Shown here in pieces: positions 7,908-25,416 of a stretch of 64,000 nt of DNA. A program made the translations under genes and the position numbers. The notes beneath the pieces were generated by a model. That model saw nothing but the letters and a program-made list of their open reading frames with translations. It was not told the origin of the DNA and searched no databases. Positions within the stretch are counted from its first letter, which is position 1. Each line of letters starts with the position of its first letter. This DNA is from Gammaproteobacteria bacterium (lineage in GTDB: Bacteria > Pseudomonadota > Gammaproteobacteria > Steroidobacterales > Steroidobacteraceae), in contig CANIOW010000001.1 of NCBI GenBank assembly GCA_947469285.1, forward strand, positions 1 through 64,000, written 5' to 3'.

Positions 7908-9209
7908 TCAGCCAGCGACAGGCGTCGTGAGAGGCAGAGATTTCGGTCCTCGCAGAGCTAGGATCACCAGCGCCGCAATCCCCAATCCATTCACCATCTC
8001 CCCCACAATAATACCCACCAGCGCACCTACCGTGCCCCAGTGGGCCATTCCAATCAGACAGCTGACCATGGCGACCGCGGCTGAGAACAATGTCAGCAGT
8101 GACATGGACTTAAAACGGCCGAGAGCGGTTAGCAGATAAGTGACCTGGTCGCGAATGGCCAAGGAAACATACAACACACTCCAGAGCGCTATCAGCAGGC
8201 CGCCCTGAGGAATCGCCCGCTTGAACAACAGGTGCAGCAGTGGTCCGCTGAACGACCAGGCCAGAACGCCGTAAGTCAGCGTAATGCTCCCCAGTGCCGC
8301 CGAGGCCAATAGTAATCGTTTAATAAGCCATTGCCGTCCGTGCTGTGACAACCACCCGGCTGCTGCGGGCGCAAGCAAAGCGCCGACACCCGTGGATAAT
8401 AAATTAAGAGGCATCAGTAGCAAGCGGGTTGCCGAAAGTGCCGCGACTGCAGCCAGGCCAAGTTGTGCGGCTACTAAATAAAGAAAGCCTTGACTGAAAA
8501 TCCAATAAACGGCGGCGCCGCCAGTGGACCAGGCGGTGAGTGGTAAAATATCCCTGAGCAGGCTAGACTTTTGTTGCGGCGAATGGTCAATCAAAAACGG
8601 CAAGCTCCTCCGTAGGCAACGATAGGTCACCCACGAGGCCAAGCTGAGCGATAACAAAACAAACGGGACTGGGCGTAAGGTTCTTGACGCTACCAATGCG
8701 CCGATCAAAAGCACTGCGACGTACAGCACGTCAGCACGCAATACCGCATGGGAATCGCGGAGAGCAAACATGGCTTGGCGTAAAAATTCTCTCCTTAACG
8801 ACAAGAAGGCGGCCAATAGCGTCGCGAAGGAAATGACTGCTGTAGTGTTATCTATCAACCGGAAGGCCTGTAACAAAAGCGTTACGACAGCCAAACTACT
8901 TCCAATCCGAATTAGCGCTCGCTTCTGTTCGTAAGCGAGTCCGGTGACCATCAGGCCTCGCTGATGCGCGTCTAAAGCAGGTACGCGCATTGATAGCGGT
9001 GGACCGAAAAATGAGGTTTGTAGAGAAACGGTTAGAAGCAGCGCATTCATTGCTAAAACATAATGAGCGTAGTCTCTAACCTCGGCAGTGCGAATAAGCA
9101 GTAAACCCACCATAAAATTTGCTGCGGAAAGTACTGCCTGGGCAAGAACCGCGCTACTGATCAGTTGTAAGAAATGGCTACCACTTACGGTGGCGATGGT
9201 TTTTTTCAT
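7908..9209 (-). CDS. Wzx-like polysaccharide flippase (MOP superfamily)
   Basis: 433 residues, almost entirely hydrophobic, with 12 or so predicted membrane helices, starting MKKTIATVSGSHFLQL. The topology and the motif region near FMVGLLLIRTAEVRDYAHYVLA match O-antigen/EPS flippases that move undecaprenyl-linked repeat units across the inner membrane. The start is ATG 9209, which overlaps the stop of the upstream glycosyltransferase as ATGA; a longer frame to 9236 adds nine residues only. It is the last gene of a seven-gene overlapping series and depends on the polymerase and chain-length genes upstream. Assignment is by topology and context; sequence identity among flippases is low. Confidence 0.75.
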   Translation of the reverse strand: MKKTIATVSGSHFLQLISSAVLAQAVLSAANFMVGLLLIRTAEVRDYAHYVLAMNALLLTVSLQTSFFGPPLSMRVPALDAHQRGLMVTGLAYEQKRALIRIGSSLAVVTLLLQAFRLIDNTTAVISFATLLAAFLSLRREFLRQAMFALRDSHAVLRADVLYVAVLLIGALVASRTLRPVPFVLLSLSLASWVTYRCLRRSLPFLIDHSPQQKSSLLRDILPLTAWSTGGAAVYWIFSQGFLYLVAAQLGLAAVAALSATRLLLMPLNLLSTGVGALLAPAAAGWLSQHGRQWLIKRLLLASAALGSITLTYGVLAWSFSGPLLHLLFKRAIPQGGLLIALWSVLYVSLAIRDQVTYLLTALGRFKSMSLLTLFSAAVAMVSCLIGMAHWGTVGALVGIIVGEMVNGLGIAALVILALRGPKSLPLTTPVAG

Positions 9210-10450
9210 GGCGGCACGCGTCGGGTGCGGACCCACTCGGCCGCGGAGTTAGGTTTCAGAGCTAGCTTAAGCTTCCACCAAATAAACCGCGGCGCGAGCA
9301 ATAAGTCTAGCAACCCCGTCCAGCCGGTTTCGCTCAAGCTCCATCCACGAAGTACGTGCATTAGCAATAAAAGCGACATGAAAACCGATAACGTCCCCAA
9401 AAAGAGAAAGTGCATGCCTTGCTCTGGCGCCATCGTGGCAACATAGCCAGTGAAAGCTAGAATAGATAACAGCGCGATCGCGATAAAGACTGCCGCTAAG
9501 GGAGGGACAAGTAAGTCTGCGGCTAGATCGAAGCGGATTTTGCGGGTTCCCCTAGGATTCCATGCCATCAGAGCGGGCAGAAATTCACGCAGTAAACGTT
9601 TGCGACCGCCTTCCCAGCGTTGCCGTTGGGAAATGGCTCCAGCGGCGTCGGTCACGAGACTGGCCAGCACCTCGGCTTCATCAGCGTAATGCACGCGATA
9701 ACCAGCGAGCCCTAGGCGGATCCCGTACTCAACATCCTCGGTTAGGCCATAGGCCGTGAACGGTACGGCGCGCTCGACCGCTGCAGAGACGCACCAGCCA
9801 TTTCCGCGAATGCCGCAAGAAACGCCAAGGCGCTCACGCGCTCGCGAGCGTACGCGATGAAACGCGGCGATGCCGATCGACAGTAGTCGAATACGACGTG
9901 ACTGGCACGGATCGAGTACGCCGTGATGCACCTGAACGGCAGCCGCGCCTTGTTGTAGTCGCGAAGCGAATGTCTGTAGTAATGAAGTTGAAACGCGGGA
10001 ATCCGCGTCTATGACCACCAGTGCGTCAGCCCAGCCGTCCGCCTGACAAACATCAAAGCCATAGCGCAATGCGTGGCCTTTTCCCCGCAAGAGAAGGTTG
10101 TTTCGCACCAGGACATACGCGCCTGCAGCAGCAGCGCGGTCCGCTGTATCGTCAGTGCAATTATCCGCCACGACTAGAATACGAAATTGGCTCGTAGGCC
10201 AATCTACTGCGCGTAAATTTTGAACCACAGATACTATGCCAAGCGATTCATTGTGCGCAGGAACGACAATGTCAAACTTAAGTGGTAGCTTCGGGCTGCT
10301 GTCGACAGCGGGAGCCCCGGTTTTTCCAGAGAGGGCTGTCAATATAGTTAAATAAAGCGTAGCGGCTAGAGTAGGAACTGCCAATACGATTATCGAGCCA
10401 TAGAGAATGACAACGATCGCAGAGTGAAACCACTGATGCGAGTCAGTCAT
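9206..10450 (-). CDS. Family 2 glycosyltransferase with QxxRW motif, membrane-bound
   Basis: 414 residues from ATG 10450, which overlaps the upstream stop as ATGA. One N-terminal helix (about 10-35) precedes a GT-A domain: VVPAHNES, VVADNCTDDT, VIDADS (the DxD), LTEDVEYG (acceptor base) and QRQRWEGGR, the QxxRW motif. Two or more helices follow (VPPLAAVFIAIALLS; FLFLGTLSVFMSLLLLMHVL). The D, DxD, ED, QxxRW set plus C-terminal helices is that of processive beta-glycosyltransferases such as cellulose and hyaluronan synthases, though some single-addition EPS enzymes also carry it. In a Wzx/Wzy locus it may add one sugar to the lipid-linked unit. The two beta-glucanases in the locus favour a beta-glucan-like linkage. 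Donor sugar unknown. Confidence 0.85.
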   Translation of the reverse strand: MTDSHQWFHSAIVVILYGSIIVLAVPTLAATLYLTILTALSGKTGAPAVDSSPKLPLKFDIVVPAHNESLGIVSVVQNLRAVDWPTSQFRILVVADNCTDDTADRAAAAGAYVLVRNNLLLRGKGHALRYGFDVCQADGWADALVVIDADSRVSTSLLQTFASRLQQGAAAVQVHHGVLDPCQSRRIRLLSIGIAAFHRVRSRARERLGVSCGIRGNGWCVSAAVERAVPFTAYGLTEDVEYGIRLGLAGYRVHYADEAEVLASLVTDAAGAISQRQRWEGGRKRLLREFLPALMAWNPRGTRKIRFDLAADLLVPPLAAVFIAIALLSILAFTGYVATMAPEQGMHFLFLGTLSVFMSLLLLMHVLRGWSLSETGWTGLLDLLLAPRFIWWKLKLALKPNSAAEWVRTRRVPP

Positions 10451-12510
10451 GACGACGTGCTCGCATATTCGCGATAATGCCACCCGGCTAGCACGGAAAG
10501 CTTTCCTGCATTGGCGGCCGCTTTCATTAACCAGCGCGCAGAACGGTGTCGGCCGAAGGGAGCGGTCACGACCGTCAGCGCTAAGGCCGCGATCATTTGC
10601 AGAAGTGCTCTTGCAAAAAATACCCATTTAACTAATAGCGGCAACGGTCCGTATCGTCCACGCAGCGTATGTGCTGCGAAGTCCTGTCCGCCACGTAACG
10701 ATCTCCGCAGCAGCCAGCCTAGCGACAAGCGCTTAGCTTCAACCGGCTCATGGATGACAGCTTCGTCGCACCACACAAGCTTCGCGCCTCCCAGTCGAAG
10801 GCGGTTGAGAAGATCGCCATCCTCGCCACCGGTTAAACCAAGATGGGGATCAAACACCTGGCGATGTCGACTTAAGCTGGCGCGGGACAGCAGCACATTG
10901 CCAAAACGTAGCCCGTTCGGAGGGATGACCTCGCCCGTCTTAATTCGCGCCCAGTCATAAAACTTTCCGCGACGAATCCATGTAGGAGCGTTCGGCGGTA
11001 TCCCCGGCAATACCGGGCCGAGCACCCCATCCGCACGGTACCGGTAGGCAGAAGCCACCAGACGTTGAATCCAGTCCGTTGGCGCGCGCTCGTCGTCGTC
11101 CACAAAGGCCAGCCAATCACCTGAGGCAAGCTCGACGCTACGGTTTCTGGTCGCGGAGATGTTTTTTTTTGGTTGTATTGCGTAGGTCATTTTAAACGGC
11201 GCGCCATTCGATCGGCAGGCTACAACGACGTCTCTAGCACTCCCGTGGCAATCGTTGTCGACGACGATCACTTCATACGGACAATGAATCTGCTGGGTTA
11301 AGTCATTCAGCAGCAAGCGAAGACGTTCAGGTCGTTGATAAGTCGCAATACAGACACTGATTTTGGCTGTCTCTATTTCTGCGTGGATAGATGGCTTACT
11401 TCCATCCGTGAAAGTTTCCATGTTATGTTCCTGCAGTAAATAATTATGTAGTCGACGTCGGACCTTGGCGAACGGCCGCTCCACCAAGTGATGCACCAGC
11501 ATTGAAAAAACTGCAGTGCCGACGACCACGGCCAACACACGAATGGTCCAATGAATGCTATTCCCATAGCGAACAATGGCGAAGTAAATAACATGGTGAC
11601 TAAGGTAGATAACGTAGGACAGCTGCCCGACATACTTAAGCGGCTCCCAATTAAGCCAGCTAAAGAGCTTTAAACTTGAATGTGTTACCGAAAGATAAAT
11701 GAGCGGCGCAATGGCAACAATTTGTAAACTGTAACGGAGCGTTAAACGAAATTGCTCGTTTCGATACAATAAAGAGGTCAAAATAAATAAGGCGCAGATA
11801 GCCACCACAGCGCAAATTTTTCGAATTCCGAGATTCGGTATTGGATCGAGCGTTGGGTGCCGAACCAGCGCCATTAAGCATCCCGCTAGAACGGCGTCTA
11901 CGCGGGTATCTGTTGCCATCTGTAAGTAGTGCTCGGAGGCGCCGCGCTGGTAAAGCCAGAACCGCCAGCCGAGGATTGCGGCACACAGCAACGCCAGCAA
12001 GTACGCGATCTTGATGGGCGTCCATCGGCGTTGCAATAGTATGAAAAGCGGCGGGAATGCCAAATAGAAGTGCTCTTCTATTGCCAGCGACCATAGCACT
12101 CCTAGGCCAGCCGGAACACCTGAGAAATTTCCAAATATTAATTGGTAGTTAGAAAAGTAGAGCAGCGCGGCTAAAAGTCCCCCTGGCGAATAAACGCCGT
12201 CGATGAGTCCGTATTGCGAAAGTCCGCCAGTGATAATAATGACCAGTAACAACGGGGGATAGAGTCTTAGGCAGCGACGCTGGTAGAAGTTACGAAGATT
12301 TAACTTACCGGATGTGTCTATTTCGCTTCGCATTAATGATGTAATCAGATATCCACTAATTACAAAGAATAACGTAACTCCAAAGCCGCCGGGGACCCAT
12401 GATTGGAAACCTGAATGCGCCAGCAATACTAATCCAATCGCGACAGCGCGTAGGCCATCTAGCGATGGCAATAGCTTCGCGGTTGTCGTGCTAGTTAGAG
12501 GCCGGTTCAT
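10447..12510 (-). CDS. Acyltransferase-3 / family 2 glycosyltransferase fusion
   Basis: 687 residues. Residues 1-355 are an integral-membrane acyltransferase 3 (OafA/YrhL type): LPSLDGLRAVAIGLVLLAH gives the R-x10-H motif (R21, H32), then FFVISGYLIT and LWSLAIEEHFYLAFP. Residues 383-690 are a cytosolic GT2 domain: ISVCIATYQRPERL, VIVVDND, FVDDDERAP (DDD at 471-473) and GGEDGDLLNRL. The first half likely acetylates or otherwise acylates sugars using a membrane-crossing acyl relay, the second adds a sugar. An internal ATG (residue 364, position 11421) has AGGA at 11432-11429, seven bases upstream, so the GT2 half may also be made alone. The gene overlaps both neighbours as ATGA. Confidence 0.88.
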   Translation of the reverse strand: MNRPLTSTTTAKLLPSLDGLRAVAIGLVLLAHSGFQSWVPGGFGVTLFFVISGYLITSLMRSEIDTSGKLNLRNFYQRRCLRLYPPLLLVIIITGGLSQYGLIDGVYSPGGLLAALLYFSNYQLIFGNFSGVPAGLGVLWSLAIEEHFYLAFPPLFILLQRRWTPIKIAYLLALLCAAILGWRFWLYQRGASEHYLQMATDTRVDAVLAGCLMALVRHPTLDPIPNLGIRKICAVVAICALFILTSLLYRNEQFRLTLRYSLQIVAIAPLIYLSVTHSSLKLFSWLNWEPLKYVGQLSYVIYLSHHVIYFAIVRYGNSIHWTIRVLAVVVGTAVFSMLVHHLVERPFAKVRRRLHNYLLQEHNMETFTDGSKPSIHAEIETAKISVCIATYQRPERLRLLLNDLTQQIHCPYEVIVVDNDCHGSARDVVVACRSNGAPFKMTYAIQPKKNISATRNRSVELASGDWLAFVDDDERAPTDWIQRLVASAYRYRADGVLGPVLPGIPPNAPTWIRRGKFYDWARIKTGEVIPPNGLRFGNVLLSRASLSRHRQVFDPHLGLTGGEDGDLLNRLRLGGAKLVWCDEAVIHEPVEAKRLSLGWLLRRSLRGGQDFAAHTLRGRYGPLPLLVKWVFFARALLQMIAALALTVVTAPFGRHRSARWLMKAAANAGKLSVLAGWHYREYASTSS
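11419..11432 (-). promoter_or_regulatory. Possible internal ribosome site for the GT2 half
   Basis: Inside the acyltransferase-GT2 gene, AGGA at 11432-11429 stands seven bases before an in-frame ATG (11421-11419, residue 364). That is exactly in the linker between the two domains. The spacing is as good as for real starts in this operon. It may be a relic of two once-separate genes or still used. Confidence 0.4.
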
Positions 12511-16220: not shown

Positions 16221-18038
16221 ATGAATAGGATCCAGAGGTTGAAGTGGTGGGTTGTATTGCTCGGGGCGGCGGCTCTACTGACCGGTTTTTCCCGATGGAC
16301 TCTTGCGGCTGGTTACTTCACGCAGGCCGGGCGCCTATATGATGGTTACGGTCAGGAGATTCAGCTACGCGGCATTAGTCACTACGGTTTTAACTCGGGC
16401 ATTTTGCAGCCGCAGTACTTATGGACGATGGGCTGGAAAGAGCAGATTGCGCAGATGAAGTCTTTGGGGTTTAACGCGATTCGGGTCCCCTTTGTGCCGG
16501 ACACGCTCCATGTAAGTACTCCGGTTAATGTGTTGAGTTACGTAGAGCCGGCGAAGAATGCGGATTTGATCGGTAAGACGCCGTTGGAGGTGTTAGATCT
16601 GTGGATGGCGGAGGCAGACCGACAAGGCTTGTACTTGCTGCTAGATTTCCACAGCGTATCGCGCCAACGACAATATCCAACATGGTTTGTCAGTCGTCCT
16701 GCGGACTATGGGTTGGTTTGGAACAATGCTCCTTACACTGTTGAGCAATGGCATCAGGACTTGGTGTTTGTGGCTAAGCGATATGCGCGCTTATCGCATT
16801 TCATGGGTGTCGACCTGTACAACGAGCCCAATGGAGTGGTCCGTTGGAGTACGGGGGACCGCCAGATGACGGATGCCGCGAATTACTGGAAGCCTGCAGC
16901 TGAGGGTGCCGCGGCGGCTGTGCTCGCGGCAAACCCCAATTTGCTGATTTTCGTGCAGGGCATCAACGGCAATTGGGATGGACGGGAAGTGTCCAACATG
17001 CCGATGAACTGGGGCGAAGATTTTCAGCCCCAAGCGTACCAACCCTTGAATATCCCACTCTCAAAGCTGGTGTTGTCACCGCATACTTATGGCCCAGACG
17101 TGTGGGTGAAATCCTCCTTTGCAGCAGGGAATTTCCCGAATAATCTCGCCGCGCACTGGGAGCAGCTGTTTGGGCAGTTCGCTTCTATCCATCCGGTAGT
17201 CATTGGAGAATGGGGCGGAAAATATGGCACGGGGACTGGTGGACTGCAGGACAAAGTGTGGCAGGAAGCCTTAGTGGATTACATGATTCGTAAAGGCATG
17301 CGTAGTTCTTTCTACTGGTGCTATACCCCAAACAGCGGGGACACCGGCGGTATCCTGGATGACAGCTTGGCAGTCCGGCAAGACAAGCTGTCGCTGTTAC
17401 GCCGCTTATGGGGCTCTGCGCAGCCAATACCGCCGCCGGTGGGTCCGGTCACGGGTGGCGTGGTTCCACCAGGCGTGCCGGTGCCCGGTGGTGCGCCGCA
17501 GCCTTCGGTGCTGGTTTTTGCGCCGACCGCGGGACTGCCCGGGTCTTTAGTGACGCTGGTCGGTCGTGGGTTAACCGGCCTGAATCGTGTGACCTTAGGG
17601 GCTGGAAATATTGATCAATTCAAAGTGATAAGTGATACGCGCCTGCAGTTCACCGTTCCTGCCAATGCGAGTACCGGCTACATTAGTCTGTTCAATGCCG
17701 CGCGGTCGGTTACCTCCAGCACGGTTTTTACGGTGAAGCCGGTGGTGGGAGCGCCGATTGGGGTCCCCGCTACTGTTGGGTATGTGCAGCCCGTTATTGC
17801 GCGGTTCTTTCCCGCCTCAGGGCCTGTCGGTACGTCGGTAACGGTCACTGGAAAAGGGTTTACGGGCATTACACATGCGTGGGTGGGGTCCGCCCATCAC
17901 GCCATCGTCCGGGTTATTAGCGACACCCAGCTGCTGGTCGTTATACCCGCAGGCGCTACCAGCGGGGCCATTGGGATTTTTAATCCTTCTAGAGTGGCGT
18001 TCTCCGCTACGGCGTTCCGTTTGGCACCACCGCCTTAA
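16221..18038 (+). CDS. Secreted GH5 beta-glucanase with two IPT/TIG domains
   Basis: 605 residues with a signal peptide (helix about 9-30, cleavage near LAA). Residues 31-400 are a GH5 (cellulase) barrel: RGISHYG, FNAIRVPF, DLYNEPNG (acid/base E202), LSPHTYGPD and VIGEWGG (nucleophile E330). A Pro/Gly-rich linker (about 403-427) leads to two IPT/TIG immunoglobulin-like repeats (about 430-508 and 523-602). It would cut internal beta-1,4-glucan or a related EPS backbone in the periplasm or outside. AGGAG stands seven bases before ATG 16221. It lies divergent to the EPS operon and upstream of a GH8 gene, so it may trim or release the locus polymer. IPT domains on a GH5 of this kind are uncommon in my knowledge. 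Confidence 0.88.
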   Translation: MNRIQRLKWWVVLLGAAALLTGFSRWTLAAGYFTQAGRLYDGYGQEIQLRGISHYGFNSGILQPQYLWTMGWKEQIAQMKSLGFNAIRVPFVPDTLHVSTPVNVLSYVEPAKNADLIGKTPLEVLDLWMAEADRQGLYLLLDFHSVSRQRQYPTWFVSRPADYGLVWNNAPYTVEQWHQDLVFVAKRYARLSHFMGVDLYNEPNGVVRWSTGDRQMTDAANYWKPAAEGAAAAVLAANPNLLIFVQGINGNWDGREVSNMPMNWGEDFQPQAYQPLNIPLSKLVLSPHTYGPDVWVKSSFAAGNFPNNLAAHWEQLFGQFASIHPVVIGEWGGKYGTGTGGLQDKVWQEALVDYMIRKGMRSSFYWCYTPNSGDTGGILDDSLAVRQDKLSLLRRLWGSAQPIPPPVGPVTGGVVPPGVPVPGGAPQPSVLVFAPTAGLPGSLVTLVGRGLTGLNRVTLGAGNIDQFKVISDTRLQFTVPANASTGYISLFNAARSVTSSTVFTVKPVVGAPIGVPATVGYVQPVIARFFPASGPVGTSVTVTGKGFTGITHAWVGSAHHAIVRVISDTQLLVVIPAGATSGAIGIFNPSRVAFSATAFRLAPPP

Positions 18039-18047
18039 GCCAACAAC

Positions 18048-18067
18048 CGGGGTAATCCCCGCGCTTT
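18048..18067 (+). terminator. Weak hairpin between the GH5 and GH8 genes
   Basis: CGGGG (18048-18052) and CCCCG (18057-18061) pair around TAAT, followed by CGCTTTT. The stem is short and the T-tract only four bases, so it may only partly stop transcription between the two glucanase genes. Confidence 0.35.
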
Positions 18068-18138
18068 TGGCCCTTAAATCCGCCGCGGCGTGCGCTAAGC
18101 GACAGACTAGACCCGTGGGGAGTGCGGAGTATTCGGTC

Positions 18139-19269
18139 ATGAAACGAGCGTTACTTCGAACTCTTCCACTGGTCCTTTTGGCTGTCTGTAGCGCCTGCAG
18201 TACGAGAGATGAAGCTACTGCGCCCGCGTGGCCTGCTTGGACGCTGTTTACTGAACAGTTCGTCGAGCCTAACGGTAGGGTGGTAGATGTCACCTTCGAG
18301 CATAAGACCACCTCTGAGGGACAGTCTTATGCGCTTTTCTTTGCTTTGGTCGCCAATGACCCGGCGTTGTTCGAACGGGTACTACACTGGACGTCTCGGT
18401 CCTTGGCCAGCGGACGCCTTGGGCGTGAGCTCCCCGCATGGCACTGGGGGAAACGCTCGAATGGGACCTGGGGGGTCAAGGACCGGAACTCCGCGAGTGA
18501 TGCTGATTTGTGGCTGGCCTACACGCTGTTAGAGGCAGGGCGGCTGTGGCAGCAGCCGCGATATACCCGCGTCGGCTACGAGCTGCTTGATCAAATCAGT
18601 CACCGCGAGGTGGTAGAAGTGGGGTCAAGACAGTATCTGCTGCCTGGTCCATCTGGTTTTCAGTTGGATGAAGGCCGGTATCGCGTTAATCCCAGCTACT
18701 ACCCTGGTTTCCTGTTCACCTATTTAAAAAATGCCCAGCCAACGGGTCCGTGGAAGGCGTTGTGGGCTACTTACTCAGCAATGACGTCGCGTATTTTTAA
18801 AGCAGGCGTCGCCCCAGATCTCGTCGTGGTAGATTCGCTAGGCGAGGTATGGGATGACACTGAGAGGCCACCGCGCGGTAGCTATGATGCCATTCGCGTC
18901 TACTTGTGGGCGGGAATGTCAGGCGCGACGGGAGATGATGCCCTGCGTCTCTTGCAGCCCTACGCGAGAATGCTGCGGAGTTTAGGAGTGCCACCAGAGC
19001 AGGTAGATCCAGTCTCCGGGGCTGCGCTCCGCGTTGATTACTCTCCCTCCGGTTTTTCGGCTGCGGTACTGCCATTTCTACATTCCTTAGGTGACCAGGC
19101 GGAATTGCAGCAACAGCAACGGCGTGTAGACGATGCGCTGGCCAAAGCGCTTAGCACAGGACGTAGTAATTACTACGACCAAGCTCTAATCTTGTTTGGT
19201 GAAGGCTGGGTAACACACCGGTTTCACTTTGACGCGGCTGGTCGACTACATCCAGCATGGGCCCCATGA
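18139..19269 (+). CDS. GH8 endoglucanase, BcsZ-like
   Basis: 376 residues from ATG 18139; a longer frame back to 17875 overlaps the GH5 gene and is rejected because ATG 18139 gives an export signal (RALLRTLPLVLLAVCSAC). Cysteines 17 and 20 might act as a lipidation site, but neither has an ideal lipobox. GH8 marks: TSEGQSYALFFALVANDP (acid E60) and NSASDADLWLAYTLLEAG (Asp121/123, base region), plus YYPGFLF and GSYDAIRVYLWAGM. BcsZ/CMCax enzymes trim glucan during cellulose export in the periplasm. No bcsA, bcsB or bcsC is in the window, so here it probably serves the EPS locus. GGAG lies about ten bases before the ATG. Confidence 0.88.
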   Translation: MKRALLRTLPLVLLAVCSACSTRDEATAPAWPAWTLFTEQFVEPNGRVVDVTFEHKTTSEGQSYALFFALVANDPALFERVLHWTSRSLASGRLGRELPAWHWGKRSNGTWGVKDRNSASDADLWLAYTLLEAGRLWQQPRYTRVGYELLDQISHREVVEVGSRQYLLPGPSGFQLDEGRYRVNPSYYPGFLFTYLKNAQPTGPWKALWATYSAMTSRIFKAGVAPDLVVVDSLGEVWDDTERPPRGSYDAIRVYLWAGMSGATGDDALRLLQPYARMLRSLGVPPEQVDPVSGAALRVDYSPSGFSAAVLPFLHSLGDQAELQQQQRRVDDALAKALSTGRSNYYDQALILFGEGWVTHRFHFDAAGRLHPAWAP

Positions 19270-19309: not shown

Positions 19310-20722
19310 TCAAGGCTTTACCACTAACGGATGGCGTCTGAGAGCACTGAAAACTCGTGGGCCGCGTACGAGGTAACGGTTAGCGAGCCTCTTGGGGTTC
19401 CGGCATAGACGGTAGGCCCACTCGGCTCCTATTCTTTGCATCCAAAGTGGGGCGCGGGCTTCTGTTTTCGTTATGAAATTAATAGAAGCGCCGATGCATA
19501 GTGCGAGCCCCTGAGATTTTCCGCGCTCTTTGAGTTTCGCCGCCACTATTTCTTGTTGCGGCGCGCCGACTGCCAATAAGCAAAACCGAAACGGGCTGTA
19601 AGTTTCAATGAACTCAAGACATTCCTCTAGAGCCGCCATGTCCCGAATGAACCCCATAGGGGGAATGTGTTGGCGCACATCCCGAAGCCCATACCTGCCG
19701 CGAAGATAGGTCGCTTGGTCGGTGGTTCCGCCAATCAGGACAATGCGATCCTCAGAGCGGATAACTTCTGAAAAAAGCTGCGCGGTTAAATCACTTCCCG
19801 GACAAACGCGCAGAAGGCTGGATCCAACTAAGCGTTGCCATAACGCAATAAACCGACTGTCGAGCAATACATAGTCAGCGGCAGCATAAATTTTTCGATA
19901 CGAGGGATCTTCAGCAAAGCGCACCAAATGATCGGCATTTGGCGTGACTACGTAGCCGAAGCGTTCCTGCCCAAATTTTTTGGCTATGGGGGTAAACCCG
20001 TCTAAATCTAAATTATCGACGGATATTGGCTCAATATCATCGTCCATCGGCAGTAATGCAATCGGCGCGGACAGTGACTTAAGCCGCTCTAGCCAGGCCT
20101 CTTCGCCGTCTATCTCCTGGGCTGGACGCGCAACGAAGATCCAATCCAGATGATTCTTTTTTCCAAATTGGATCACCTCATCGATGGCGTCTGGCGCAAA
20201 TAAGTTGAGGACTCGGATGGTTACGGGCTCAAGGTCTCGAAGCCTCTGCATTAGGCGTTTAGTGTCATGCGGTGCGCCGATAATAATCGCTCGGTCAGTC
20301 AGATGGCCGCGACGTTCACAAAGCTGTACCAGCGAGACCAGTAGTAGGCGCAGTATCAGTCCGCTACAAAATCCACTGAGTAGCCAGAACACCACGGACA
20401 GGACCGGAAAGCCCACTGCGTTCGCGGTTAGGGGCCCAAGTGCGAGTACTAAAACCGCCAAAACGACAAAACGGGCGATGTGACTGACAACGATGGCTCT
20501 TAGCGCGGCCAAGTGCAGCCACTGCCCTAGACGTTGTTCTCGAACAAGGACTAGAAAAATAACGGTAACTAATAGGGCAGTGCGCATCTCTGGTAACAAC
20601 AACAGGTTTGGCGTAGGGGCCAGTGCCAGCAGCACCAGTACGCCTATGTCTATTATCGCCATGATATTCGGTGCTACCTCTAGTAGCGTCGGGCAATAGT
20701 GATGCGCGAGTTTAGTAGGCAT
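19310..20722 (-). CDS. Fusion: membrane module of a priming transferase plus WecG/TagA glycosyltransferase
   Basis: 470 residues. Residues 1-135 hold four predicted helices and about 140-235 a Rossmann-like domain (RAIIIGAPHDTKRLMQRL, then HLDWIFVARP). Together they match the N-terminal part of WcaJ/GumD-type undecaprenyl-phosphate sugar transferases. Residues 250-455 are a WecG/TagA/CpsF (GT26) domain: VTPNADHLVRFAEDPSYR, ADYVLLDSRF, VGAPQQEIVA and RIGAEWAYRL. GT26 enzymes add the second sugar (for example GlcA or ManNAc) onto the lipid-linked primer. The gene overlaps by 11 bases the upstream gene encoding the catalytic sugar-phosphate transferase, which lacks this membrane module. The two products may form a complex that primes and extends the repeat unit. 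Confidence 0.85.
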   Translation of the reverse strand: MPTKLAHHYCPTLLEVAPNIMAIIDIGVLVLLALAPTPNLLLLPEMRTALLVTVIFLVLVREQRLGQWLHLAALRAIVVSHIARFVVLAVLVLALGPLTANAVGFPVLSVVFWLLSGFCSGLILRLLLVSLVQLCERRGHLTDRAIIIGAPHDTKRLMQRLRDLEPVTIRVLNLFAPDAIDEVIQFGKKNHLDWIFVARPAQEIDGEEAWLERLKSLSAPIALLPMDDDIEPISVDNLDLDGFTPIAKKFGQERFGYVVTPNADHLVRFAEDPSYRKIYAAADYVLLDSRFIALWQRLVGSSLLRVCPGSDLTAQLFSEVIRSEDRIVLIGGTTDQATYLRGRYGLRDVRQHIPPMGFIRDMAALEECLEFIETYSPFRFCLLAVGAPQQEIVAAKLKERGKSQGLALCIGASINFITKTEARAPLWMQRIGAEWAYRLCRNPKRLANRYLVRGPRVFSALRRHPLVVKP

Positions 20723-21476
20723 TGGTGGCTCGCATCACTTCTCTGGTGGTCATGAAAAGTATTTTGATATCTAGCCAAAGCGTCCAATGCTCTATGTAGT
20801 GCAAGTCTAGTTCGACGCGTTGTAATAGCTGTGCGACGGTGTCCGTTGCGCCGCGGGCCCCATTGACCTGGGACCATCCGGTCATCCCAGGTTTTACACG
20901 ATGTCGCTGTGGATAGCGGCTGGTGATCTGCTGGCCTAGAAGATTTTCGGTACGCATGTCGACGGCATGCGGCCTCGGCCCGACGAGCGACATTTCTCCT
21001 CGCAGAACGTTGAAGAGCTGCGGCAGCTCATCGATGCTGGAGGTACGAAGAAACCTTCCTAAACGCGTTACACGGCGATCAAAACGCGCAGTCTGTTGTA
21101 GATCTAACTGAGGCATGGAGGCCTCCCAGTACATCGTGCGGAATTTCCAGATCAGGAACTCACGGTTATCAAGCCCATGACGTCGCTGTTTAAATAAGAC
21201 CGGCCCTGGTGAGTCGAGTTTGATGGCCACGGCGACCAGTAGTAACAAAGGCGCAAGCAGTAAAGTGATGAGCACTGCGAGTAGCTGGTCTTCCAGATTT
21301 TTCACGACGGATCCCCAATGTTTGATGGGGCGATCCGCAAGAATCCTCATCGGCGTCGGGTTCCTGCGAGCACGCCGCGGCGACGCACGGCGCAAGTGAT
21401 CGCTGCGGCCGGGCAGCATGGCGGGTGTTTCATCGGTCCGAGTGTTCTTGGGCCGGGCGGGCAGATGGGCGTTCAT
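20712..21476 (-). CDS. Undecaprenyl-phosphate sugar-1-phosphate transferase, catalytic domain only
   Basis: 254 residues of the bacterial sugar transferase family (WcaJ/GumD C-terminal type). One re-entrant or membrane helix ([24 protein letters not shown]) is followed by [44 protein letters not shown] and [12 protein letters not shown]. The end ([19 protein letters not shown]) is that of the glucose/hexose-1-phosphate branch. It starts EPS synthesis by loading a sugar-phosphate on undecaprenyl phosphate at the inner membrane. The usual four-helix and Rossmann N-terminal part is missing and is found in the next gene. The start is uncertain: ATG 21476, or ATG 21350 (residue 43), which has AGGA about 11 bases upstream. 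Confidence 0.9.
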
Positions 21477-21601
21477 GGGATAGAGGGTCGATGGCGCGTT
21501 GATGGCTGGTCTGTCTCCGCGCGTACTAAGTACGTTTACGAACAGAGCTTGAGGCGTCTGCTCAGCAGACTTTGATCGTTGCTATTTGCCAAGGAACGTT
21601 T

Positions 21602-22894
21602 ATGGATTCCTCTGAACTAAGCGATCGACCGTCCGTGCCGCGTATTCTGGTGTTCGCTACGCTGCGCTGGCAGCTGGCTGCCCGGATGGCTATCGCCTTC
21701 TCTGAGGGCGGTTGTCACGTAGACGTGTTATGTCCCCGCGGTAACCCCGCACGGCTCGTTTCTTGTGTGCGCCAGCTACTGTCTTGTTCGTTACTGGTAC
21801 CGGTGCGGTCTGCTCGTCGGGCTATTGCCGCGTGCAGCCCAGATTTGGTGGTGCCGGTGGATGACGGTGCTGCACTGGTGCTGCAGCGTCTGTATCGGTG
21901 GTCGCTAGCCAGTGGAACGTCTCAGGACACGCTGCGAGTACTGTTGGAACGCTCGCTTGGCAGCCCGGAGGCCTGTTTACTCGCCGGATTGCGCGGGCAG
22001 TTTATGGAGCTGGCCAGTCGTCTTGGTGTGCGCGTTCCACCCTCAGCTATCGTTTCTTCAGTGGCCGGCCTTCGGGATTGGATTGCTCTGCACGGCTTAC
22101 CGGTAGTTCTTAAATCGGATTTCAGCTACGGCGGTAAGGGGGTTTCTATTGCGCATACGTCAGCGGAAGCGGAGGGCGCGCTGTTGCGCATGATGCAGCG
22201 GCCCCGTTTATGGTCAGCAATATTCCGCTCGGCCGTTGACCGAGATATTAACCAGTTGCTCGCATGGGTACGCCCTGCGCCTTCGTCCCTGCTCGTCCAG
22301 CGGTGCATCGTCGGACGCCCCGCGAACCGCGCGGTGGCCTGTTGGAATGGCGAGGTGCTCGCTGGCATTAGCGTGGAGGCGTTGCGGACACAGCACGCAA
22401 CGGGGCCATCAACGGTGGTGTGTAAAGTCAATAGCGCGGAAATGGAAACGGCGACCCGCCGTATTGTTCAGGAGCTGAACATATCGGGGTTGGTGGGCGT
22501 GGATTTTATGGTTGAGGGTCGCACCGGTGCTGCGTTTGTGATTGAAATGAACCCGCGTGCGACGCCTGCTTGCCATCTGCCTCGGGCGTTAGGGGTTGAT
22601 CTTCCGGCGAGCTTGACGGCGCGTCTGCTTGGGCGGGGCTTGCCATTACGTCGTAACGGGCTTGTACCCGGGGTGGTGACGTTATTTCCTGGGGAATGGC
22701 GCGCTAATGCGGCGAGCCCTTATTTGCACAGCGGGTGTCATGACGTGCCGTGGGAATATCCGGCACTCGTTCTGGACGGGCTGGAGCCGGCGTGGGAGGA
22801 GCGGGGTTGGCTTGCGCGTGCATTGGCCGCCTGGCGTGGCGGCGCTATTGAAGCCGAACGTGCTTCGCTGCGTGCACCGCATGAATTGTTCTAA
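21602..22894 (+). CDS. ATP-grasp ligase of unknown substrate
   Basis: 430 residues from ATG 21602, with AAGGAA (21591-21596) five bases upstream; a TTG at 21572 is rejected. A pre-ATP-grasp domain (PRILVFATLRWQLAARMAIAF ... DLVVPVDDG) is followed by an ATP-grasp core: LPVVLKSDFSYGGKGV, SLLVQRCIVGRPANRAVA, GLVGVDFMVE and FVIEMNPRATP (metal-binding E and N). Such enzymes join a carboxylate to an amine or similar nucleophile through an acyl phosphate. It lies between the priming transferase (divergent, 125-base gap) and a Crp/Fnr regulator. It may add an amino-acid-like decoration to the EPS or make a precursor, but this is inference from position only. Confidence 0.8.
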   Translation: MDSSELSDRPSVPRILVFATLRWQLAARMAIAFSEGGCHVDVLCPRGNPARLVSCVRQLLSCSLLVPVRSARRAIAACSPDLVVPVDDGAALVLQRLYRWSLASGTSQDTLRVLLERSLGSPEACLLAGLRGQFMELASRLGVRVPPSAIVSSVAGLRDWIALHGLPVVLKSDFSYGGKGVSIAHTSAEAEGALLRMMQRPRLWSAIFRSAVDRDINQLLAWVRPAPSSLLVQRCIVGRPANRAVACWNGEVLAGISVEALRTQHATGPSTVVCKVNSAEMETATRRIVQELNISGLVGVDFMVEGRTGAAFVIEMNPRATPACHLPRALGVDLPASLTARLLGRGLPLRRNGLVPGVVTLFPGEWRANAASPYLHSGCHDVPWEYPALVLDGLEPAWEERGWLARALAAWRGGAIEAERASLRAPHELF

Positions 22895-23970: not shown

Positions 23971-25416
23971 ATGAACGCCAACCACGCCATGCGTATGTTG
24001 ATCGCGGGAGCTGCCTTGTTGGGCAGTGTCCAAACAACGAGTGCCGCGAACACCATTAACGTCGAATGGAACAACACCCTGCTCAACGCCATCCGCGTGA
24101 CCAAACCGGGTCCGCCGATGACCGCCCGCGCCATTTCGATCGTCCATACCTGTGTCTATGATGCCTGGGCCGCCTACGATGGCCGTGCAAATGGCACGCA
24201 GCTGGGTGGTGCTTTACGCCAGCCGTCCGGCGCTCGCACTGACGCGAACAAGCGCAAGGCGATTAGCTACGCCGCCTACAAGGCGCTGGTGGATCTGTAC
24301 CCGACGCGCAAGGCAGATTTTGATGCCAAGCTCGTTGCGCTGGGCTACACCCCGAGCGACTCGACTAACACCAGTACTCCAGAAGGCGTGGCCAACACCG
24401 CTTGCGGTGCCGTGCTGACGTTCCGTCATGCCGACGGCTCCAACCAGTTGGGTAATGCGCCCAATGGTACCGCTGGTAAAGCTTATTCGGACTACACCGG
24501 CTACCAGCCAGTGAATACGCCTTCTACCGTCAATGACGTCAACCGTTGGCAGCCGTTGCTGGTCGGGGGAGTCACTCAGAAGTTCATCACCCCGCATTGG
24601 AGGAACGTGGCGCCCTTCGCGCTGACTTCAGCTTCCCAGTTCCTGCCGCCGCCCCCCGTGGCCTACGGTTCGTCTAAGTTTCTCGCCCAGTCACGCGACA
24701 TTCTTAACATCAGTGCTCATCTGACCGACCGTCAGAAGATGATGGCCGAGTACTGGGCCGACGGTCCGGCATCAGAATTGCCGCCGGGCCACTGGACGCT
24801 ATTCGCAACCTTTGTTTCCGAGCGTGATAAGCACACCGTGGACCAGGATACGAAGATGTTCTTTGCGCTGGGCAATGCACTGCTCGACGCCAGCATCGTG
24901 TGCTGGGATGCCAAAGTGATCTACGATGCCTCCCGTCCGGTGACCACCATCCGCTATCTGTTCGCGGGGCAGCCAGTGCGTGCCTGGGACGGCGCGGGCC
25001 GCGACAACACGCTGATCGACGGTGCGAACTGGAAACCGTATCAGCCGGCGAATTTCCCGACACCGCCGTTTGCCGAGTACGCCTCGGGTCACAGCACCTT
25101 CAGCAGTGCCGCTGCGGTGGTACTGCGTAACTTCACCGGTAGCGACCAGTTTGGTGTGTCTGTGACCCTCAAGCAGGGCAGTTCGATTATTGAGCCCGGC
25201 GTGGTGCCTGCGCAGGATCTGACCCTTTACTGGAAGACTTTCCGTGATGCTGCCGATGATGCGGGCATTTCGCGCCGCTACGGCGGTATCCATTTCAAAG
25301 ACGGCGACCTGGTAGCGCGCACGATGGGCGCCAAGGTTGGCGAGCAAGTCTGGCGCAAGGCGCAGCAGCTCTTCGGCGAACAGTCTGATGACCGGGAGGC
25401 CGGCACGGACCATTGA
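23971..25416 (+). CDS. Secreted vanadium haloperoxidase-like (PAP2-fold) protein
   Basis: 481 residues with a signal peptide (cleavage near TTSAA, residue 26). The N-terminal WNNTLLNAIR ... MTARAISIVHTCVYDAWAAYDG and the C-terminal FAEYASGHSTFSSAAA and RRYGGIHFKDGD match bacterial proteins of the vanadium-dependent haloperoxidase/acid phosphatase superfamily. The SGHS and R..GIHF motifs give the phosphate- or vanadate-binding serine, histidine and arginine. Whether it oxidises halides or acts as a phosphatase cannot be told. The 278 bases upstream hold an AT-rich run (about 23770-23850) and only a doubtful 61-residue frame, so the gene likely has its own promoter there. A second ATG six codons in (23989) is an alternative start. 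Confidence 0.85.
   Translation: MNANHAMRMLIAGAALLGSVQTTSAANTINVEWNNTLLNAIRVTKPGPPMTARAISIVHTCVYDAWAAYDGRANGTQLGGALRQPSGARTDANKRKAISYAAYKALVDLYPTRKADFDAKLVALGYTPSDSTNTSTPEGVANTACGAVLTFRHADGSNQLGNAPNGTAGKAYSDYTGYQPVNTPSTVNDVNRWQPLLVGGVTQKFITPHWRNVAPFALTSASQFLPPPPVAYGSSKFLAQSRDILNISAHLTDRQKMMAEYWADGPASELPPGHWTLFATFVSERDKHTVDQDTKMFFALGNALLDASIVCWDAKVIYDASRPVTTIRYLFAGQPVRAWDGAGRDNTLIDGANWKPYQPANFPTPPFAEYASGHSTFSSAAAVVLRNFTGSDQFGVSVTLKQGSSIIEPGVVPAQDLTLYWKTFRDAADDAGISRRYGGIHFKDGDLVARTMGAKVGEQVWRKAQQLFGEQSDDREAGTDH

Follow-up and report, generated by a model that had tools for sequence, protein, structure and literature searches.

The window, i.e., the whole stretch of 64,000 nucleotides analyzed here, carries on its minus strand two overlapping genes for a phosphoglycosyl transferase (PGT) and a GT26 enzyme, which lie within a Wzx/Wzy-type exopolysaccharide cluster (Table 1). 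As judged from profile searches, this cluster also contains Wzy, an EpsF/EpsG-like chain-length protein and kinase, GT2 enzymes, and GH5/GH8 glucanases, and the order of ATP-grasp protein, PGT, GT26 fusion protein, and GH8 enzyme recurs in G001, a congener of the window's genome, and in G505. GumD and GumM assemble the first two sugars of a repeat unit on the lipid carrier, and by analogy the pair described here would do the same. The ATP-grasp protein (21572-22894) is encoded divergently from the PGT, its open reading frame beginning 96 bp upstream of it, and is also found beside the PGT in G001, G003, and G505. A GH5 enzyme with TIG domains and a GH8 glucanase (16221-19269) adjoin the pair on the other side; GH8 adjoins the fusion gene in G001, G003, L175, and L176 as well, and its recurrence there is a hint of a cellulose-like backbone. 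The same cluster encodes an acyltransferase-3 domain and a GT2 glycosyltransferase in a single chain (10447-12510) and is adjoined by a gene for a vanadium-haloperoxidase-like protein (23971-25416), in the corresponding place of which G001 has an open reading frame at L054:18465-19955. The frame at 9206-10627 overlaps its upstream neighbor by 181 bp, and its real start probably lies about 76 codons downstream, because the family matches begin near residue 79.

Table 1. Features of the PGT/GT26 gene pair, in window coordinates.
Feature	Position	Strand	Basis or remarks
Fusion gene, large-PGT-type N-module plus GT26 (WecG/TagA/CpsF)	19310..20722	-	470 aa
GT26 catalytic part and C-terminal appendage, residues 236-470	19313..20017	-	Profile, alignment, Foldseek
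Rossmann-like DUF, PF13727-type, residues 143-225	20048..20296	-	AlphaFold2; without GxGxxA motif
Predicted four-helix membrane bundle, residues 11-137	20312..20692	-	AlphaFold2 helices 11-34, 44-59, 74-99, 107-137; hydropathy
Overlap of 11 bp, PGT stop/fusion-gene start, ATGCCTACTAA	20712..20722 (read 20722-20712)	-	
Core-only WcaJ/GumD-type phosphoglycosyl transferase, 254 aa	20712..21476	-	PF02397; Asp149-Glu150 dyad present
Remnant of large-PGT interdomain linker, end point of lost N-module	21288..21362	-	tblastn with large-PGT N-modules and linkers; alignment

The product of the PGT gene possesses what defines a monotopic PGT, namely a PF02397 core (residues 59-248, E=1.5e-64, 217.3 bits), a reentrant helix, and an Asp-Glu dyad, which is invariant in the PGT alignments; hydropathy indicates a hydrophobic segment at residues 60-96. 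Its match to TIGR03023 (WcaJ) is limited to profile positions 245-453 of 453, and the N-terminal TMH bundle and DUF that belong to a large monotopic PGT are absent from this protein, which thus has the core-only architecture of the small PGTs. Met43 (nt 21350) is probably the actual start, giving a protein of 212 aa, because the homology with full-length PGTs starts at the interdomain linker. An N-module hidden 5' of the PGT in another frame was considered and rejected, the sole N-module of the window being the one on the GT26 gene. A sequencing error or pseudogene was likewise rejected, because the arrangement is kept in two congeners, with purifying selection.

The second gene encodes a GT26 enzyme, as its product matches PF03808 at residues 282-450 (E=4.9e-33; 114.7 bits versus a gathering cut-off of 27.4) and its GT26 part adopts the TagA fold in Foldseek comparisons (TMt up to 0.82). 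Residues T260, N262, D288, Q389-Q390-E391, R438, and R445 are invariant in an alignment of seven sequences; the GT-E/TagA fold, the active-site Thr, Asn, Asp, and Gln-Glu, and the appendage Arg are all present, with the roles of the active-site residues taken over from TagA (PMC6493773) and the residue correspondence assigned by spacing. About 235 residues precede this complete domain, and they comprise the N-terminal four-TMH bundle and Rossmann-like DUF otherwise defining a large monotopic PGT. Profile searches detected no PF02397 catalytic core in the same chain, so the product is not a PGT itself, nor is it a Bi-PGT, which would combine such a core with a second enzyme.

Residues 46-229 of the fusion protein match the N-terminal parts of TIGR03025 and TIGR03023 (8.8e-10 and 4.4e-9, respectively). 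PF13727 remains below threshold in the window's copy (E=0.041) and is well over the cut-off in most of the fused homologues tested. AlphaFold2 predicts, with a mean pLDDT of 90.6, four long helices followed by a Rossmann-like domain and the GT26 part. Foldseek matched WbaP with the whole protein and returned WbaP (8T53; E 3.8e-4, prob 1.00) as the sole significant PDB match of the N-module alone, and a profile built from N-modules recovers WbaP at the sequence level too. The earlier note had described the PGT gene as the catalytic C-terminal part of a WcaJ/GumD-type transferase only, the front of the GT26 protein as four helices and a Rossmann-like domain, and the two genes as overlapping by 11 bases, and all of this is borne out; its proviso that residues 1-235 might prove unlike the WcaJ N-terminal fold did not materialize, as the structure matches WbaP. 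The GxG motif is gone in the window and both congeners, which have GAP or GPP in place of GAG, and is kept in the eight fused copies outside the genus. Relative to other fused copies, the window's DUF also misses a post-strand hairpin segment, which is the one aligned to the dimerization hairpin of WbaP (position inferred from the numbering in PMC10942596) and is likely to correspond to that hairpin. With the GxG motif and the hairpin-aligned segment both gone, a WbaP-like dimer or nucleotide sensing appears disfavored in the window's copy.

A comparison with the closest known systems shows that the gene pair shares features with several of them. Large monotopic PGTs such as WbaP, WcaJ, and GumD consist of four TMH, a PF13727 DUF, and a PF02397 core; the N-module of the fusion protein resembles theirs in fold order and sequence kinship, and the window's PGT core is of the WcaJ type, but the two halves reside on two proteins, the N-terminal one on a GT26 enzyme. 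The GT26 part agrees with GumM and TagA in its complete domain, TagA fold, active-site residues, and C-terminal appendage, whereas these enzymes have a short or absent N-terminus instead of a polytopic module of 235 residues. Like the small PGTs of the PglC type, the window's PGT is a catalytic core alone, although its kin are WcaJ-type large PGTs and it has become small through N-module loss. Finally, Bi-PGTs also join a PGT part to another pathway enzyme, but with the catalytic core fused (PMC10942596), while only the non-catalytic half is fused in the window. A large-PGT N-module on a GT26 enzyme falls outside every family definition tested, and a PF13727/WcaJ-GT26 fusion was not found described in the non-subscription literature searched.

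The distribution of this domain pairing was assessed in a scan of 84,980 genomes, with the analysis directed at the 80 closest loci, and in three samples of whole genomes (n = 396, 369, and 398). The N-module is borne on GT26 in 10 of the 80 loci (L066-L069, L073-L077, L085) and encoded as a separate gene in two more (L087, L089); the remaining loci show no N-module, and most of their GT26 proteins are standalone. In the whole-genome samples, the fusion occurs in three of the four genomes of the window's genus, in G505 and G1016, and in G294, where it lies on the contig of L074. Within the genus, G001 and G003 contain the same gene pair with a 19-bp gap in place of the overlap, and nothing matching the fusion protein was found in G002; elsewhere in the family, the nearest GT26 proteins are standalone. 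Carriers among the relatives include Solimonas, Hydrocarboniphaga, Leptothrix, and several MAGs. The N-module on GT26 is thus rare yet recurrent: the pairing which the earlier note had proposed to look for in other genomes does exist there, and its concern that GT26 proteins might commonly carry the module is dispelled by these low counts. Note that L066 and L067, congeners of the window's genome by genome search and carrying the same locus, come from MAG records titled Candidatus Planktophila lacus and Janthinobacterium lividum, which are probably mislabelled. Several candidates were discounted, namely core-only PGTs in the family genomes G004, G198, G217, and G189 (open frames reaching contig ends), in G153 (frame interrupted and one base unknown), and in G181 (a different small PGT), as well as a long GT26 extension in L078 and L101 that is not N-module-like. 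The very long GT26 frames of L069, L073, and L077 simply start upstream of the real genes.

The same-locus PGT keeps its own N-module in L069, L073, L074, L076, L077, and the closed genomes G505 and G1016. Because this applies to most fusion-bearing relatives, the GT26-borne N-module is a duplicate. A tree of 66 N-modules (11 GT26-borne, 2 free, 12 from PGTs of the same-locus type, and 41 from other PGTs) unites the GT26-borne, free, and same-locus modules in one clade with 99/99 support, from which the 41 modules of other PGTs are excluded. In G505, the PGT-borne and GT26-borne modules (L176:8401-9882 and 10161-12134) show 95.8% identity along 896 bp, in contrast to the flanks and downstream parts of the two copies, which differ; this likely reflects recent gene conversion or re-duplication. 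The extent of the duplicate can be read from L076, in which the fusion protein covers positions 3-292 of the 453 in TIGR03023, indicating that a PGT cut short just past the reentrant helix was subsequently joined to GT26. In L087 (3594-4580) and L089 (5788-6768), a free N-module gene is flanked by genes for a full-length PGT and a standalone GT26 enzyme; it spans the linker and the reentrant-helix segment, stops there without a catalytic domain, and overlaps the GT26 start codon with its 3' end. This free-standing form may have preceded the fused one or may have arisen from it by fission. The helix remnant is gone in L068, L069, L073, L077, and the window's genus, and degenerate in L085. A single origin of the fused GT26 proteins was not rejected (p-AU 0.389).

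The order of events follows from the catalytic-core tree, in which the window's genus is sister to L074/L175 (support 97/92 and 96/85). The PGTs of L074/L175 are full length, and in L074 the PGT precedes the fusion gene with an 11-bp overlap as in the window; because the sister PGT is intact, an N-module was already on GT26 when the window's PGT lost its own. A separate clade formed by L068 and L085 has the PGT's DUF deleted (L068) or without a PF13727 match (L085), which is, as judged from these sequences, an independent case of the module of the PGT itself having partly decayed. The sequence comparisons therefore show a partial duplication of the PGT's front half and its fusion to GT26, followed in the window's genus by loss of the PGT's own copy. 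An ancestral WcaJ/GumD-type large PGT beside a GT26 gene underwent partial duplication, and the duplicate, ending just past the reentrant membrane helix, became joined to GT26. Later, the PGT of the window's genus lost its entire N-terminal half, and the GT26-borne copy its helix remnant and likely dimerization segment too. The earlier proposal of a split priming transferase with its module fused to GT26 thus stands insofar as a large-PGT module is present on GT26 and the PGT is without one, while the implied simple move of the module off the PGT is contradicted by the relatives whose PGTs keep theirs. A direct transfer of this PGT's N-module to GT26 within the window's lineage would fit the genus taken alone, where the part missing from one gene is precisely the one present on the other; with many fused lineages retaining the PGT module, including the sister L074 with an overlap of the same length, it is highly improbable.

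Our main reading of the module's function, to which we assign a probability of about 0.5, is that the borrowed half tethers or docks the enzymes of steps 1 and 2. It would anchor GT26 in the membrane and serve as a docking platform holding it next to the PGT, which would bring the Und-PP-sugar from step 1 directly to the step-2 enzyme, and it is plausible that the first two steps have been rewired into one putative complex. Large-PGT N-modules are known to homodimerize, chiefly via the DUF hairpin (PMC10942596), and a partner protein activates a myxobacterial large PGT, proposedly by promoting dimerization (PMC12802240). In relatives with the module on both enzymes, docking may hence take the form of a pairing between the two modules, comparable to the WbaP homodimer; for the window's genus, one would have to assume a contact in trans of the module on GT26 with the bare PGT core. 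A stronger version, in which the GT26-borne N-module reconstitutes the PGT core in trans and an obligate hetero-complex hands the Und-PP-sugar made by the first enzyme to the second, seems rather doubtful to us. In the literature searched, no such shared-subunit arrangement was found for the first two enzymes of a repeat-unit pathway.

Against the tethering reading, neither enzyme obviously needs the module, because small core-only PGTs work alone as functional monomers (PMC10942596) and GT26 enzymes bind to and are activated at the membrane via their own C-terminal appendage (PMC6493773). The module might instead be a plain membrane anchor, which fixes GT26 without specific contact to a PGT core acting as a small-type PGT. 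This is a possible explanation, although we tend not to adopt it: the window's copy has indeed kept the four-helix bundle while the nucleotide motif and hairpin of the DUF were lost, but the DUF is constrained like the enzymes in the congeners, with dN/dS values between G001 and G003 of 0.05 for the DUF, 0.16 for the helices, and 0.06 for the GT26 part and PGT core (one pair, dS near 1), a constraint not needed by a pure anchor. Moreover, the module stems specifically from the neighboring PGT, to the point of near-identity in G505. These ratios show purifying selection on the module carried by GT26, and both enzymes keep their catalytic residues in the alignments.

The same selection makes a neutral by-product, i.e., a chance fusion with a functionless N-module, very unlikely, and the open frame and the fold are moreover maintained in many species; the free decay of helix remnant and linker in several lineages and the strong divergence of the window's copy (27% highest identity) would agree with it. 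Only slightly less unlikely is a regulatory sensor, in which the DUF would bind uridine nucleotides and throttle GT26 instead of, or besides, the PGT. The DUF of large PGTs may indeed sense uridine nucleotides, as UMP and UDP stabilize that of WbaP and UMP inhibits the full-length enzyme (PMC10942596), and the intact GxG motifs outside the window's genus are in line with such a role, but the loss of this motif in the window and both congeners speaks against it.

Among the monotopic PGTs, the large ones are the most abundant, and their non-catalytic half is poorly understood (PMC10942596). The loci described here provide natural variants in which this half has been separated from its enzyme, made into a free gene, or fused to the next enzyme of the pathway, and in which the original has decayed twice. 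Such variants permit direct tests of whether this half dimerizes, senses nucleotides, or organizes successive enzymes.
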